Assembly (NCBI GenBank): GCA_020846875.1
Contig: JADLDB010000001.1
Span: forward strand, 1 to 38,134
DNA from: Myxococcales bacterium
GTDB lineage: Bacteria; Myxococcota; Myxococcia; Myxococcales; Myxococcaceae
Length of the DNA: 38,134 nucleotides
Reading direction: 5' to 3'
The notes beneath the pieces were generated by a model, which was not told the origin of the DNA, ran no database searches, and saw only the letters and a program-made list of their open reading frames with translations. The position numbers were made by a program, and so were the translations under genes. Below are positions 13,528 to 19,819 of the stretch, piece by piece (position 1 is the stretch's first letter; every line of letters begins with the position of its first letter).

Positions 13528-14703
13528 TCAGTCCTTCTTCGGCGCCGTCTTCTTGTCGATCTGCTTCTTGGCCAGCATCTGGATGTTGTTGGACACGTTC
13601 TTGTCCTTGGCCAGCGTCTTCACGTCGGACTCGTGCAGCTGGTTCATCAGCCGCATCGACACGCCCTGCGGCACCTTGGGGTTCTTCACCAGCGCCAGCT
13701 TGATCGCGTACTTCCGCAGCCACTCGCGATTCGAATAGATGACGCGCAGCACGTCTTCGCTGGCCACCTTGTTCTGCGACTGGGCCAGGATCTCCCCGTC
13801 GGTGATGCGCGGGCTGCGGATCACCGCCACCGACACCAGCTTGTTGGAGTCGCGGATCAGGATCCCGCGGGCCTCCTTGTTCCCCTTGGTGGCCAGCTTG
13901 ATCTTCTCCGCCACGTTCATCTTCATGATCCGCTGCGAGAGGGTCAGCTTCTTGCCTTCCTCCATCGGCGTCGACGCCTGGCCGGCCTCCGCTTCCGCGT
14001 CCATGCCGAACTCCTGCATCACGTCGTCGGCGGTGGGCCCTTCCTGCGGCGGGGGCTGCTCGATCGCCTGCGGCCCGTAGAGGCGGACGCGCGCCTGCTG
14101 CATGTGCTGCACGTCGGCCATCACCAGCCCGTTGCGCACCGCGAAGTCGCACACGCCGTCGATCAGCGCGCCCTGGGCCTCGGGGTTCTTCGCCAGCTCG
14201 CGGATGATCGCCTCGTGCCGCAGCAGGCGCAGCTGGTTCTGCCCGATGATCTCAGCGGTGCGCTTGCTGCAGGTGGCGGCGACCGACTCCACGCCGCCGT
14301 CGGGCGTGTTGCCGTTCAAGATCAACATCTCCGCGTAGGCGTCGTTGGCGCCGTACAGCGTCATGTACCAACCCAGCACCGGCGGCGGCACCAGCTCGTC
14401 TCGGAAGGCCGAGGCCGCGATGCGATCGGGCAGCGTCGACGCCGTCTTCCCGGCGGCCTCCCGCACCTTCTCGTCCCCGTCGTACATCAGCATGAACAGC
14501 ACGGTGGTCATGTCGGACGGCGACAGGGGCACCAGTCCCTTGGCGGCCATCATGCGGATCGGCAGGGGCGCCTTCGGATCCACGTGCTTCTTCATGTTGG
14601 GCGGCAGGAAGTCGTCCTTCACCGGGCAGGCGTAGATCACCTGCTCCGCGGGCGGCGCTTCGGCGGGCGCGGCCTCGATTGGGGGCGCTTGCTCGTCGCT
14701 CAT
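13528..14703 (-). CDS. Conserved-type hypothetical protein of the coaX operon
   Basis: The family was not recognised. The 391 residues start with an Ala/Pro/Glu-rich segment (1-20), then a helical part with alternating hydrophobic and charged turns (for example [18 protein letters not shown]) that looks like HEAT-type helical repeats. A glutamine/proline-rich linker lies near 215-250, and the C-terminus is strongly basic ([13 protein letters not shown]). No signal peptide or membrane helix is seen. Its ATG overlaps the TGA of coaX as ATGA, so it is probably translated together with coaX. It converges on frzS with 11 bases between them. A role in CoA metabolism is not implied by anything in the sequence. 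Confidence 0.8.
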
Positions 14704-15467
14704 GCTCGGTTCCTCTCGTGGATGATCCGCAGGCCTTCGAGGGTGAGGAACTCGTCGACCTCTTCGATTGACTTCGACTCCGAGGCGATCAGCGGGGCCA
14801 GCCCGCCGGTGGCGATCACCTTCGGCGAGCCGCTCAGCTCCTTCTTCATCCGCTCGCTGATCCCGTCCACCAGGGCCACGTACCCGAACACCAGGCCGGC
14901 CTGCATGGCGTGCACGGTGTTCTTGCCGATCACGTGGGGCGGGCGGGCGAACTCCACCCGCGGCAGCTTGGATGCATTGCGGAACAGCGCCTCCATGGCG
15001 ATGGTGATGCCCGGGCAGATCGCCCCGCCCAGGTACTCGCCCTTCGCGCTCACCGCGTCGAAGGTGGTGGCGGTGCCGAAGTCCACCACCACCAGGGCCG
15101 TCTTGTGCTTCTCCCAGCCGGCCACCGCGTTGACGATCCGATCGGCCCCCACCTCGCGGGGGTTGTCGTAGACGATCGGCATGCCCGTCTTCACCCCCGG
15201 CCCGACGAACATCGGCTTCTGGTGGAAGTAGCGCTCGGCCATCTTCTCCAGGTTGAGCTGCAGGGGCGGCACCACGCTGGACACGGCGACCGCGTCGATT
15301 CCCTTCGCGTCGAGGCCGGCGTGCTCGAGGAGCTGGAGGAGGAGGATCCCGTACTCGTCGAAGGTGCGCCGGCCCGTCGTCTCCACCCGCCAGTGGGCGG
15401 CCAGCTTCGGGCCGTCGTATACCCCCAGCACGGTGTTGGTGTTGCCTACGTCGATGGCGAGCAACAT
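14700..15467 (-). CDS. coaX: Type III pantothenate kinase
   Basis: CoaX phosphorylates pantothenate with ATP in the first step of coenzyme A synthesis. It belongs to the ASKHA fold and is typically insensitive to CoA feedback. The 255 residues show the phosphate-binding [14 protein letters not shown] at the N-terminus, [11 protein letters not shown], the catalytic-loop region [21 protein letters not shown] and IATGGLA near the C-terminus, all standard for the family at full length. Starting at the ATG at 15465-15467, it lies 20 bases downstream of birA and overlaps the next gene by four bases. birA and coaX occur together in many bacteria. Confidence 0.96.
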
Positions 15468-15487: not shown

Positions 15488-16519
15488 TCAGGCCTTGCGG
15501 GCGCGGACCTGTTCTACGTCGCCGGCCAGCACCCGCTCCGTCGAGCCACCCACCCGGACGACCAGCGCCCCCGTCTCGTCGAGGTCCTCGGCCACGCCCC
15601 GCAGCTCCTTCTGCTCGCTGCGCACCAGCACCTCCTGGCCGAGGATCGTCGACAGCTTCTTCCACGCGAGGCGCACCGGCCCGAAGCCCTCTTCGGTCCA
15701 GGTGTCCAGCCACTGCTCGAGCCGGGTGAAGAGCGCCGCGGTGAAGAGCGCCCTCGGCACGGGCGTGCCGCGCTCCTGCTCGAGGCTGGTGGCCACCTCC
15801 GCCACCTCGGGCGGAAAGTCCTCTCTCGCCGCGTTCAGGTTCACGCCCACGCCGACGATCACGAACTGCACCCGCTCCACGTCCGCGGAAAGCTCGGTGA
15901 GGATGCCCGCCACCTTCCGCCCGCCGATGGTGACGTCGTTGGGCCACTTGATCCCCGCCTCGCCGCCGGCCTCCTGGATCGTCTGGGCCACCGCCACCGC
16001 CGCCACCAGGGTCAGCTCCGGCGCGCGCGCAGGGGGAATGTCCGGCCGCAAGATGATCGAGCAGTACAGGCTCTTCCCGACGGGCGACGCCCAGCTCCGC
16101 CCCCGCCGCCCCTTGCCCGCCGTCTGTCCCTCGGCGATCACCACCTCGCCGTGGAAGGCCCCGTCCTGCGCCAGCTCGAAGGCCACGCGGTTGGTGCTGT
16201 CGGTGGACTCGAAGTGGTGAATGGTGCGGCCCAGCTCCCGCGTGCCCAGCAGCGGCAACAGCTCCAGCGCCGTCAGCCGATCAGGGACCGCCACCAGCCG
16301 GTACCCACGGGCCGGCTGCGCCTCGATCTGGTAGCCCAGCCTGCGCAGCTGCTCCACGTGCTTCCACACCGCGGTGCGCGACAGGCCCAGCTTGTCCGAC
16401 AGCGCCGCCCCCGAGACGAACTCGTCCCCTCCCTCCACGAGGAAGGAGAGGATCAGCTCCTCGTTGGAGGACTCGGACGGCTCCACGAGGGGAACGCTAA
16501 TGGGCCGGCCGCCTCCCAT
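15488..16519 (-). CDS. birA: Biotin-protein ligase with N-terminal helix-turn-helix (BirA)
   Basis: BirA joins biotin to ATP and then to a lysine of biotin-dependent carboxylases. The 343 residues form a class II enzyme. A winged helix spans about 20-70 ([27 protein letters not shown]), which in E. coli lets it repress biotin genes. The catalytic domain carries ESTDSTN, the biotinyl-AMP loop GKGRRGRSW (135-143) and KWPNDV. A small C-terminal domain with GALVVRVGG follows. The ATG at 16517-16519 has AAGGTGG upstream. A TTG at 16522 is in frame but less likely. It heads the birA-coaX-hypothetical operon. Whether it regulates biotin genes here cannot be judged, as none are in the window. Confidence 0.95.
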
Positions 16520-16540
16520 CAAGCCACCTTGCGACGGGCT

Positions 16541-17119
16541 TTATGGGGCTTTGGGCGCCTCGAAGCGGCTCAAGGCCAGGGTGGACTGGGGGATCTTCTG
16601 GCCCTTCGCCTCCAGCACCGTGGACAGCCGGACGATCCCGACCCCGGGCGCGAAGGTCATCTCGTTGACCAGGATCTTCCCTTCCTCCACCTTGTTGCGG
16701 CTCTCCACCACCACGCAGCCCTTCCAGGCGCCGGCGGGCGCGTCGCAGGGCTGATCGGCGGCGAGGATCTCGTAGTGCTCGACAGAGGACACGGACACCA
16801 CGTTGGTCCACTTCGTGCCGGCCTCGATCGGGTTGCGCAGGAGGTAGCGCTTCTGATCGCGCACCCCGTAGGAGTCCACCAGCAGCTGCGCGCCGGTGGA
16901 GTCGAGCGCGTAGCCGTCGGGGGTCAGCTTCTGGATCGCCACGTCGATGGAGCGCTTCTCGCCCAGCAGGTTGACCTCGTAGCTCCACTTCGTACCGACG
17001 GTGAGCGGGTAGAAGTCGCGGGCGCTGGGGCCCAGGCTGGCCGACTCCTTCTTCACCTCCGGGGCGGTGGTGCACGAGAGCAGCACAGCCGCCAAGAGAA
17101 ACATCGCCTGCCGGATCAT
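16541..17119 (-). CDS. Small putative lipoprotein
   Basis: The 192 residues begin with a lipoprotein signal (MIRQAMFLLAAVLLSC, modified cysteine C16). The mature part begins with a charged segment and FYPLTVGTKWSYEV, a phrase seen in many myxobacterial secreted proteins of unknown role. A beta-rich domain follows, with two cysteines (CDAPAGAWKGC) that may form a disulphide. It is the last gene of a three-gene leftward operon, and its ATG overlaps the stop of the preceding HEAT-repeat gene as ATGA. Function is unknown; the envelope location is inferred from the signal. Confidence 0.75.
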   Translation of the reverse strand: MIRQAMFLLAAVLLSCTTAPEVKKESASLGPSARDFYPLTVGTKWSYEVNLLGEKRSIDVAIQKLTPDGYALDSTGAQLLVDSYGVRDQKRYLLRNPIEAGTKWTNVVSVSSVEHYEILAADQPCDAPAGAWKGCVVVESRNKVEEGKILVNEMTFAPGVGIVRLSTVLEAKGQKIPQSTLALSRFEAPKAP

Positions 17120-17994
17120 TTCCTGGCTCCTTCCCGGCTGCGCCGGTCCTTGAGTTCGCCAAGCGCTTGCTCCGCGGAGGCGCGGACGAGGGGATCGTCG
17201 TGCCCGGTGGCCACCGCGTCGAGGTAGGCCTCCGCCTCGTCCCCGCCGATCGCCCCCAGGGCGAAGACGATCTCTCGCTGCACCACGTTGTCCTTCGCGC
17301 GCGAGGCGTTGATCAACGCCGGCACCGCGTCGGGGTTGCCCAGCTCGATGAGCAGCCCCATCGTCTCGCGGATCTGCGTCAGATCGTCCGTCTCCAGCCG
17401 GCCGAGCAGCGGCGCCAGCGCCCGCGCGTCGTGCCTGCGAGCCAAGAGCCGCACCGCGGCGCTCTTCACCGCGTCGTCGCTGGAGGTGAGCTGCTGGGCC
17501 ACCTGCTCGTCCTTGAGCGCCGTCAGATCGATGAGCGCGCGCGCCTCGCGCACCGCCTGGCCGAGGGCCGCGTCGAGCGCCTCACGGGCGGAGGACTGAA
17601 TGGCCTCCACGTCGTTGCCCACCGGGGCGGTGGTGCGCCGGGTGCGGAGCTCGAAGCTCTCCAGGGTGCCCTTCTGCCGGACCTGGAGCAGCACCTCGAC
17701 GGTGGAGGCAGGCTCCCCGTCCACCTCGGGCTCGGTGAGACCCGCGGCGAGGGTGATCGTCCACGGCGAGACGCCTTCGGGCAGGGGCTTGCCCGCCTCG
17801 CGCAGGGTGAAGTGGGACGCCTCGAGGCGCGCGGTGAGGCGCTCCTTGAGCTGGGCCTGGGTCATCGACACCACGTCGGTGCCTTCGAAGGCGTCGACGC
17901 TGATCTTCTCCACCACCGGGTGCGAGCGCTTCGAGCACGAGCAGGAGCCCGCCACCAACGCCAGGGCGATGAGGCCGAGGCGGCGCACCGTCAC
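17116..17994 (-). CDS. HEAT-repeat lipoprotein
   Basis: The 292 residues start with a short signal and a lipobox-like VAGSC (C18). Residues 30-150 form a beta-rich domain without a clear match, and about 160-285 carry HEAT-type helical repeats (ALAPLLGRLETDDLTQIRETMGLLIELGNPDAVPALINASRAKDNVVQREIVFALGAIGG). Such repeats usually form protein-binding scaffolds. The start is a GTG at 17992-17994 that overlaps the stop of the upstream HARE gene as GTGA. The ATGA overlap at its other end ties it to the small lipoprotein. The partner is unknown. Confidence 0.78.
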   Translation of the reverse strand: MTVRRLGLIALALVAGSCSCSKRSHPVVEKISVDAFEGTDVVSMTQAQLKERLTARLEASHFTLREAGKPLPEGVSPWTITLAAGLTEPEVDGEPASTVEVLLQVRQKGTLESFELRTRRTTAPVGNDVEAIQSSAREALDAALGQAVREARALIDLTALKDEQVAQQLTSSDDAVKSAAVRLLARRHDARALAPLLGRLETDDLTQIRETMGLLIELGNPDAVPALINASRAKDNVVQREIVFALGAIGGDEAEAYLDAVATGHDDPLVRASAEQALGELKDRRSREGARK

Positions 17995-19724
17995 CCCGCG
18001 CCGGGAGTCGATGGAGCAGGCGGAGGGGGCGAAGGCGCGTCGCCGGCGGCGGGCGCCGCGGGGGGAGCGGACTCGCCAGCGGCACCCGGCTCGGCGGCCT
18101 GGGCTTCACCGGGAGGTCCACCCTCCGGGCGCTGACCTCCACGGCGGCGGCGGCGGCGGCGACGGCGGCGGCGGCGGCCCTCGCCGGCCGCGCCCTCCGG
18201 ACCGGCGGCGCCTTCCGCCTCGGGGCCCTCGTCGCCCTCCCCGCCCTCGTCGTCGTCCCCGTCCTCGTCGGACTCGCCTCCCTCGGCTGCGGCGCCGGCA
18301 GCAGCGGCGGCAGGCGCGGCGCCTTCGCTCGCGGGGGCGCTCTCGGGCGCGGCCTGACCTTCGGAGGCGGCCGCTTCCGGCCGGCCCTGATCGCGCTGCC
18401 GCTCCTCGCGCCGCAGCCGCGCTTCCTCGGCGTCCTTCGAGGCCTGGGCGAAGAAGGCGTCGTCCACCTCGTACAGCTCGACGGTGGCCACCTTCACGCC
18501 GACGTGGGCCTCGAGGAACTTCTCGGCCAGCCCGTCGCCGCACCAGAGCAGCGCCAGGTTGGAGCCGGCCACCGCTTCCCCGCGGGCCTCGCCGCGCGCC
18601 TCGCCGGGCGACAGCACCAGGCCGATGTTCGCGCCGAGGTGGGACAGGTCGCGCTTGAGCTCCTGCACGTGGCGGCGCTCGATCGGCTGGTTGCCCTTGA
18701 GCAGCTTCACCGCGTAGCGCAGCTCGAGGCTGCCGTCTTTCTTCCGGGCGGTGAGCAGCGGGCCTTCCTTCGAGCGTCGGGCCACCTTGAGCTCGCGGAA
18801 GTGCAGCGCGTGCAGCATGCGCACGCAGGACTTCTCGAAGGTGCCCAGCTCGAAGTCGGCCAGCCTGCGCCGCAGCAGGCGCGCGATGGCCTTCTTCGCG
18901 TCCCGGGTGGCGTGGCGGGCCGCCTGCAGCAGCGCCGCTTCGTCACCGGAAGGCGCCTCGGCCTCGACGACGCGGGCGCGGGCGCGATCGGCGCGCAGCA
19001 CCACCCGGCCGTTCTCGAACTTCAGGTTCGCCGCCGAGCAGAACGTCTGCATCAGCTCGGCTGGGGACGGGCCACCCTCGGCCGGCGGCGACAGCTCGAT
19101 GGACACCTGCAGCTCGCCACCCTCGGCGCGCGCGGCGGCAAAGGCGGGCCGTCGGTTCTCGTCGAGGCGCTTCTGGTTGTCCTCGGCCAGGGCGTCGAGC
19201 AGCGCGCCCACCGAAAGATCGTCGTCCGCCAGCTCCGCCGTGCGGGCGCGGGCGATCAGCTCGCCGGGGGTGAGCGCCCCCTTGCACTCCTCGAGCAGCT
19301 GGAAGGCCACCTCGGGGAGCGGGGGGAACTTCTTCTTGCGATCGTCGTCGCGGCGCTTGCGATCCGCCTGGCGGCCGATGCTGCGCAGGTACTCGGCGTG
19401 CGGCTCCGGGTGGCGCTCGCTGGGCCGGTAGGGCGGCAGCTCCTCCTCGGGGTTGGTCCCCGCCACGCCCGTCTGGGCCAGCGCGGCGGCGTCCTCCGGC
19501 AGCATCCAATCGGTGAGGGCGAAGGTGTCCCGCGCGGTCACCATCACCCGCCGGCCCACCGTCCGCCGCGCCATCGCGGCCAGCCGCGACAGCATGGTCA
19601 CCTCGGGCGTCTTCCCCACGTGCGACAACAGCCCCTTGTCGATCGCCCGCTTCGTGATCTCTTCCGAGTGCAGGGGCGCCGTGGCCTCCTCCAGCACCCG
19701 GAGCGCAGCTTCGTAGAACGTCAT
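17991..19724 (-). CDS. HARE-HTH protein with Mrr-like nuclease region and polyarginine tail
   Basis: The 577 residues show an N-terminal HARE-HTH domain (about 1-70, with AALRVLEEATAPLHSEEITKRA), which links restriction enzymes and chromatin proteins to DNA. A middle region is followed by a restriction-endonuclease-like domain (about 296-420, from FEKSCVRMLHALHFREL). The Mrr pattern is only partly kept: KKDGSLELRYAVKLLKG replaces the usual D...ExK/QxKR core, so nuclease activity is uncertain. A 150-residue low-complexity tail has an acidic Glu/Asp run (about 485-500), then twelve arginines in a row (about 516-527), then Pro/Ala/Gly. The ATG at 19722-19724 has AGGA upstream. It heads an operon with two lipoproteins. 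Function is unknown; nucleic-acid binding is likely. Confidence 0.78.
   Translation of the reverse strand: MTFYEAALRVLEEATAPLHSEEITKRAIDKGLLSHVGKTPEVTMLSRLAAMARRTVGRRVMVTARDTFALTDWMLPEDAAALAQTGVAGTNPEEELPPYRPSERHPEPHAEYLRSIGRQADRKRRDDDRKKKFPPLPEVAFQLLEECKGALTPGELIARARTAELADDDLSVGALLDALAEDNQKRLDENRRPAFAAARAEGGELQVSIELSPPAEGGPSPAELMQTFCSAANLKFENGRVVLRADRARARVVEAEAPSGDEAALLQAARHATRDAKKAIARLLRRRLADFELGTFEKSCVRMLHALHFRELKVARRSKEGPLLTARKKDGSLELRYAVKLLKGNQPIERRHVQELKRDLSHLGANIGLVLSPGEARGEARGEAVAGSNLALLWCGDGLAEKFLEAHVGVKVATVELYEVDDAFFAQASKDAEEARLRREERQRDQGRPEAAASEGQAAPESAPASEGAAPAAAAAGAAAEGGESDEDGDDDEGGEGDEGPEAEGAAGPEGAAGEGRRRRRRRRRRRRGGQRPEGGPPGEAQAAEPGAAGESAPPAAPAAGDAPSPPPPAPSTPGAG
18142..18177 (-). 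repeat. CGG trinucleotide tract encoding polyarginine
   Basis: On the plus strand the 36 bases are twelve CGG/CGA-type triplets with a single interrupting base change (GGCGACGG near 18160). On the coding strand they encode the R12 run. The repeat unit is three, so slippage would change the number of arginines and not the frame. Confidence 0.8.
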
Positions 19725-19790: not shown

Positions 19791-19819
19791 ATGGTACGCA
19801 TGGGTACACTGGGTGTCAA
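19791..19819 (-). promoter_or_regulatory. Promoter of the HARE-HTH operon
   Basis: Read leftward, TTGACA (complement of 19814-19819) is followed after 17 bases by TACCAT (complement of 19791-19796), matching the -35 perfectly and the -10 at four of six positions. It would give a 5' leader of about 60 bases to the ATG at 19724, with an AGGA ribosome-binding site. Confidence 0.6.
19805..19810 (+). promoter_or_regulatory. Likely -10 box of the propeller gene
   Basis: TACACT ends 12 bases before the GTG start at 19823. No clear -35 box is found at normal spacing. It lies inside the divergent promoter of the HARE operon, so the two transcripts would compete for polymerase binding. Confidence 0.4.

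Follow-up and report, generated by a model that had tools for sequence, protein, structure and literature searches.

A HARE-HTH/Mrr-like protein of the class Myxococcia as a probable domesticated restriction enzyme, and the lipoprotein genes of its operon

In Myxococcales bacterium GCA_020846875.1, genes for a protein of nucleic-acid-binding type (hereafter the HARE protein) and for two envelope lipoproteins (LP1 and LP2) lie in one operon. We analyzed the 38,134-nt stretch of DNA that contains it (contig JADLDB010000001.1, positions 1-38,134, forward strand), which is referred to below as the window. A sequence-only reading of this DNA had raised the question of whether the three genes encode an undescribed system that ties DNA or RNA to the envelope or whether they are a case of simple operon packing. 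No paper mentioning both 'HARE-HTH' and 'Myxococcus' was found in the literature library searched.

Organization of the operon

As had been proposed, the window contains three minus-strand genes with overlapping ends (Table 1). The stop codon of the HARE gene overlaps the GTG start codon of LP1 as GTGA at 17991-17994, while the stop codon of LP1 overlaps the ATG start codon of LP2 as ATGA at 17116-17119, and these overlaps bear out the suggested translational coupling of a HARE-type protein to two codirectional lipoproteins. The hexamers and spacing of the promoter upstream of the HARE gene are also readable in relatives when the aligned spacers are inspected by eye.

Table 1. Features of the HARE operon and its surroundings in the window
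Feature	Position (nt)	Strand	Basis
Conserved 391-residue protein, without Pfam family	13528..14703	-	After CoaX, kept across home family
CoaX, type III pantothenate kinase	14700..15455	-	Same-direction run, beyond BirA
BirA	15488..16522	-	Next gene in run, same direction as LP2
LP2, 192-residue lipoprotein, YmcC-like all-beta fold (predicted)	16541..17119	-	AF2 pLDDT 92; 3fzx Z 13.8
LP1, 292-residue lipoprotein, C-terminal HEAT repeats	17116..17994	-	Pfam HEAT_2 E 2e-14; invariant Cys
HARE gene, 577 aa	17991..19724	-	ATG start at 19724; orthologues begin at same MTFYEAAL motif
Run of 12 arginines, residues 517-528, CGC/CGT codons	18141..18176	-	Translation
Most acidic 40 residues, about 476-515, net charge -16	18180..18299	-	Charge count
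Inactive Mrr-type PD-(D/E)XK core, residues 291-401	18522..18854	-	Pfam PF04471, hhalign, catalytic residues absent
Second winged-helix domain, about residues 134-213	19086..19325	-	AF2 model; Zur/PerR-type matches
HARE-HTH winged helix, residues 1-73	19506..19724	-	Pfam PF05066, structure match
Sigma-70-type promoter TTGACA-17-TACCAT	19791..19819	-	Upstream of HARE gene
PQQ_2 beta-propeller protein, 688 aa	19823..21889	+	Divergent from HARE gene

Both lipoproteins carry a signal peptide with a lipobox, the cysteine of which is invariant among the 25 LP1 and the 31 LP2 sequences aligned, so their description as envelope lipoproteins stands. LP2 matched no Pfam family. Its AlphaFold2 (AF2) model matches 3fzx most strongly, followed by RseB (Z 8.6) and LolA/LolB (about Z 6-7), and the predicted all-beta fold is common to LP2 and the half-barrel lipoproteins of the YmcC-like, LolA/LolB, and RseB types, although LP2, unlike these, is assigned to no sequence family. 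The shape of the model suggests a possible role for LP2 in lipid or lipoprotein handling. On the opposite strand, no signal peptide was seen on the propeller protein, including its orthologues with a placeable start (the annotated start was used in the window and in a few loci), and judging from its sequence the protein is apparently cytosolic. The propeller N-terminus carries a motif like MIRFRIGxxWKRE.

Domain anatomy and loss of the catalytic residues

The HARE protein had been described as a HARE-HTH/Mrr-like protein of nucleic-acid-binding type, and both Pfam domains indeed score above their cut-offs, HARE-HTH (PF05066) with 57.7 bits versus 25.9 (E 1.5e-15) and Mrr_cat (PF04471) with 33.2 bits versus 21 (E 6e-8). 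This earlier domain list was right for both, but it made no mention of the second winged helix, which in the AF2 model of the protein (mean pLDDT 85) resembles Zur/PerR-type regulators with Z values of 7.4-8.3. The same model predicts a PD-(D/E)XK fold at residues 292-412, where AF1548 is matched with Z 12.0 over 108 residues and AspBHI with Z 11.3 over 134 residues. When the full-length protein was searched by profile against solved structures, only chance matches to coiled coils came back.

We compared the core by hhalign with two intact Mrr and two further Mrr_cat proteins from other Myxococcia genomes, and the comparison with intact Mrr gave a probability of 97.9. The catalytic D ... Q/E-x-K triad is absent in all 68 orthologue sequences, a set in which some rows repeat a record of the same genome. 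The D column never shows an acidic residue, its occupants being L, Y, M, F, I, or C; the Q column is R or K in 67 of the 68 rows and Q in the other; and the K column is never K, being occupied by L, V, or I. By contrast, L154 (VDGGID ... AIQVK), an intact HARE-Mrr protein of a different class within the phylum, has all three residues. The degenerate nuclease core recognized in the sequence-only reading is therefore borne out, both by the alignment and by a modeled PD-(D/E)XK fold that lacks the triad, and the absence of the triad from every orthologue, together with its presence in L154, points to a domesticated, inactive HARE-Mrr protein. The intact protein (L154:583-1884) also carries an extra C-terminal region and is a candidate modification-dependent restriction enzyme.

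Column 343, next to the catalytic K column, is often K or R, and a shift of the lysine to this position is conceivable from the alignment; even with such a shift, a metal site would be unlikely because the aspartate is missing. The core is basic in 99-100% of rows at positions 313, 316, 317, 327, 329, 336, 340, 350, 357, and 381. It also has invariant acidic residues at 311, 334, 379, and 397, so it might still perform some other chemistry.

Mrr-type restriction endonucleases, including HARE-Mrr fusions (PF05066 + PF04471), share the N-terminal HARE-HTH and the Mrr-type core with the HARE protein by direct homology, whereas the HARE protein has lost the D, Q, and K, has gained the second winged helix and a charged tail, and is inherited vertically as a single copy. 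The inactive restriction-endonuclease domains (iREase), such as NA-iREase1 and those of BREX/RapA-type helicases, similarly have a degenerate PD-(D/E)XK fold without catalytic residues, but the HARE protein, unlike these domains, is joined to no NTPase or helicase and lies in no defense locus.

The charged tail

By composition, the tail of the HARE protein is disordered and consists of an acidic stretch, 12 arginines, and 49 more residues. The acidic run and exactly twelve arginines had been seen previously, and both are confirmed. The accompanying term 'R12 tail' is correct as to the arginines but not as to their place, as further residues follow the run here and still more do so in relatives. 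In the home family, the arginine run is RKRRRRRRRGRRGRG or, at its longest, R12; as protein it takes the form KRRRRRRRGRRGRG, or a 17-letter form in family f3, and its codons are mixed. The acidic-then-arginine tail is retained as protein in two families, while the arginine run is absent from family f2. Because of this retention across two families, and because the 7.06-Mb genome has only three places where ten consecutive CGN codons can be read, the arginine run is not a product of chance. A mere trinucleotide repeat was also considered and rejected: the lysine and glycine interruptions are common to relatives and the codons are mixed, both of which point to selection acting on the protein.

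Compared with arginine codons elsewhere in these genes, those of the run are rich in CGT (32% versus 11%) and poor in CGG (9% versus 20%). The CGT share is higher in the run in 46 of 47 sequences, which are not independent of each other, and this excess could reflect fast codons or the avoidance of a perfect repeat. In one distant HARE member (L054:5950-7587), repeated tracts, both acidic and of the RRSRR/RGGRGRGR type, are inserted between the first and second domains.

In the tail of Myxococcus xanthus CarD, basic RGRP repeats come after an acidic segment (PMC4374960), and the HARE protein has the same succession of acidic and basic segments as CarD/HMGA-like tails. However, the RGRP AT-hook repeats of CarD are absent, their place being taken by the arginine run and then by RGRG in relatives. 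Likewise, no Pfam match was found in the HARE protein to the CarD_CdnL_TRCF polymerase-binding domain of CarD, and it has HARE and Mrr domains instead.

Three alternatives to a domesticated nucleic-acid binder were weighed, and their fit declines from a delta-like polymerase factor to a defense sensor to a three-part envelope system. As an RNA polymerase accessory factor similar to the Firmicutes delta subunit (RpoE), the protein would dock through its HARE domain, its dead core would be jaw-like as in Rpb5, and its tail would displace or hold nucleic acid. The HARE family includes delta, in which a folded N-terminal domain is joined to a disordered, acidic tail by which nucleic acid is displaced (PMC7749165). 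The HARE protein shares this succession of an N-terminal HARE domain and an acidic disordered C-terminal region, the net charge of its tail ranging from -14 to -38 among the measured sequences. In addition, residues 1-81 of the model match chain E of 8x6g, an S. aureus polymerase complex (Z 7.3), and the core matches Rpb5 chains (Z 7-9). These Z values nevertheless lie within the range of common arrangements, the best matches of the core are nucleases, and a profile search of the HARE domain against solved structures found nothing of worth and matched no solved delta chain. Delta is moreover a small two-part protein (about 173 residues in B. subtilis) without a nuclease core or an arginine run, whereas the HARE protein is far longer and has extra folded domains. 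Delta binds polymerase between the beta' shelf and jaw. Overall, we consider a delta-like function unlikely.

Distribution and inheritance

Of 195 genomes of the phylum, 138 gave a match to the HARE protein, almost all of them belonging to one class, and the protein is near-universal in the class Myxococcia. Among 21 sampled relatives, 19 have HARE-HTH, each with one copy in its genome. The distant members L054-L056 share the layout of HARE domain, middle domain, and dead core. No homologue was found in the 72,556 plasmid records or the 50,697 phage records searched.

This distribution bears upon the second alternative, namely that the HARE protein is a restriction or anti-phage protein that senses modified or foreign DNA and does not itself cut. 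HARE-HTH domains are fused to restriction nucleases and have been proposed to read modified bases (PMC11037411), there is precedent for inactive nucleases interpreted as sensors in defense systems (PMC12839542), and a weak PADLOC match (PDC-S02, E 2.6e-9) covers the core. Yet the patchy, mobile occurrence and defense-gene neighborhood of an anti-phage gene are not what we found. The gene is single-copy, class-wide, missing from the plasmid and phage records, and stably sited by the housekeeping genes birA and coaX, and no effector gene adjoins it, all of which make a role as a defense sensor quite improbable.

Neighbors of the HARE gene across families

Whether the HARE gene and the lipoprotein genes are always together depends upon the level of comparison. 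Separation of the three genes, which the sequence-only reading had named as evidence against a system, is seen between families but not among the closest relatives. The order HARE-LP1-LP2 is found in 41 home-family loci, and three termite-gut genomes are without LP2. Outside the home family, where each of 21 sampled genomes was counted once, the full order is present in eight (families f2 and f3), and a single lipoprotein gene follows the HARE gene in one f3 genome and in f5, f9, and f10. By family, then, HARE-LP1-LP2 occurs in three and HARE with one lipoprotein in three more. Four families of the same order (f4, f6, f7, and f8) have the HARE gene away from LP1-LP2. A separation was counted only when the sequence continued to either side or when LP1 had a different gene immediately before it (L086, L131, L132, L081, and L084/L135); this stricter rule was adopted because some separations onto different contigs (e.g., G057 and G111) are probably assembly breaks at the arginine-rich tail. 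The HARE gene is followed by mutS in gut Myxococcales, overlapping or abutting in the same direction (L048:7344-10052, L050:8049-10817, and L085), and by lipB in L054-L056. Conversely, LP1 and LP2 are adjacent in other classes without the HARE gene, next to a lipoate ligase gene (L141) or others. The neighbors of this phylum-wide pair vary and include BirA, homoserine dehydrogenase, and lipoate ligase.

Linkage of the three genes is thus not obligate, which counts against the proposed connection of DNA or RNA with the envelope and makes operon packing, the other option offered in the sequence-only reading, the better fit to the neighbor changes. A three-gene system was at first favored by the conservation of the operon among close relatives and was overturned by wider sampling. 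A cytoplasmic HARE protein cooperating with both lipoproteins across the envelope would agree with the gene order kept in the home family and beyond, the overlapping starts, and the single conserved promoter upstream of the HARE gene, but it is very unlikely given the pair without the HARE gene, the HARE gene without the pair or with one lipoprotein missing, and the lack in the three genes of any visible part that crosses the inner membrane. The age of the operon, on the other hand, is a point against packing, since the association outlasts what packing alone requires.

The divergent propeller gene accompanies the HARE gene in most families of the class, adjoining it in 43 of 48 home-family loci and in 18 of the 21 genomes outside. 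From the neighbor comparison, the lipoproteins appear to be an older pair and the propeller gene the steadier partner of the HARE gene. A class-wide myxobacterial transcription or nucleoid factor derived from a restriction enzyme, partnered with the propeller protein, and made up of a delta-like HARE domain, an Rpb5-like dead core, and a CarD-like tail, seems rather doubtful.

Discussion

We favor, with a probability of roughly 0.6, the explanation that the HARE protein is a domesticated, restriction-derived nucleic-acid binder with a role in the chromosome or transcription, and that the lipoproteins share its operon by packing. It would descend from a HARE-Mrr restriction enzyme in which the catalytic residues were lost, and would be inherited vertically as a housekeeping protein in the class Myxococcia. 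With two winged helices and a dead core rich in invariant arginine and lysine residues, the present protein would bind DNA or RNA without cutting it. The disordered tail, acidic and then arginine-rich, may tune or add to this binding, as might be compared with the tail of Myxococcus CarD, and the protein would probably serve as a nucleoid- or transcription-associated factor. LP1 and LP2 would be an older, phylum-wide pair whose place in an operon with the HARE gene reflects packing, and they would form no complex with the HARE protein.

The locus also offers a caution, as a conserved operon with overlapping starts may reflect packing, which here was seen only through more distant families. If the favored explanation is true, domestication would have turned a modification-dependent restriction enzyme into a chromosomal protein with a housekeeping role throughout a bacterial class, and the intact HARE-Mrr protein in another class of the phylum would provide a comparison for the domesticated form.
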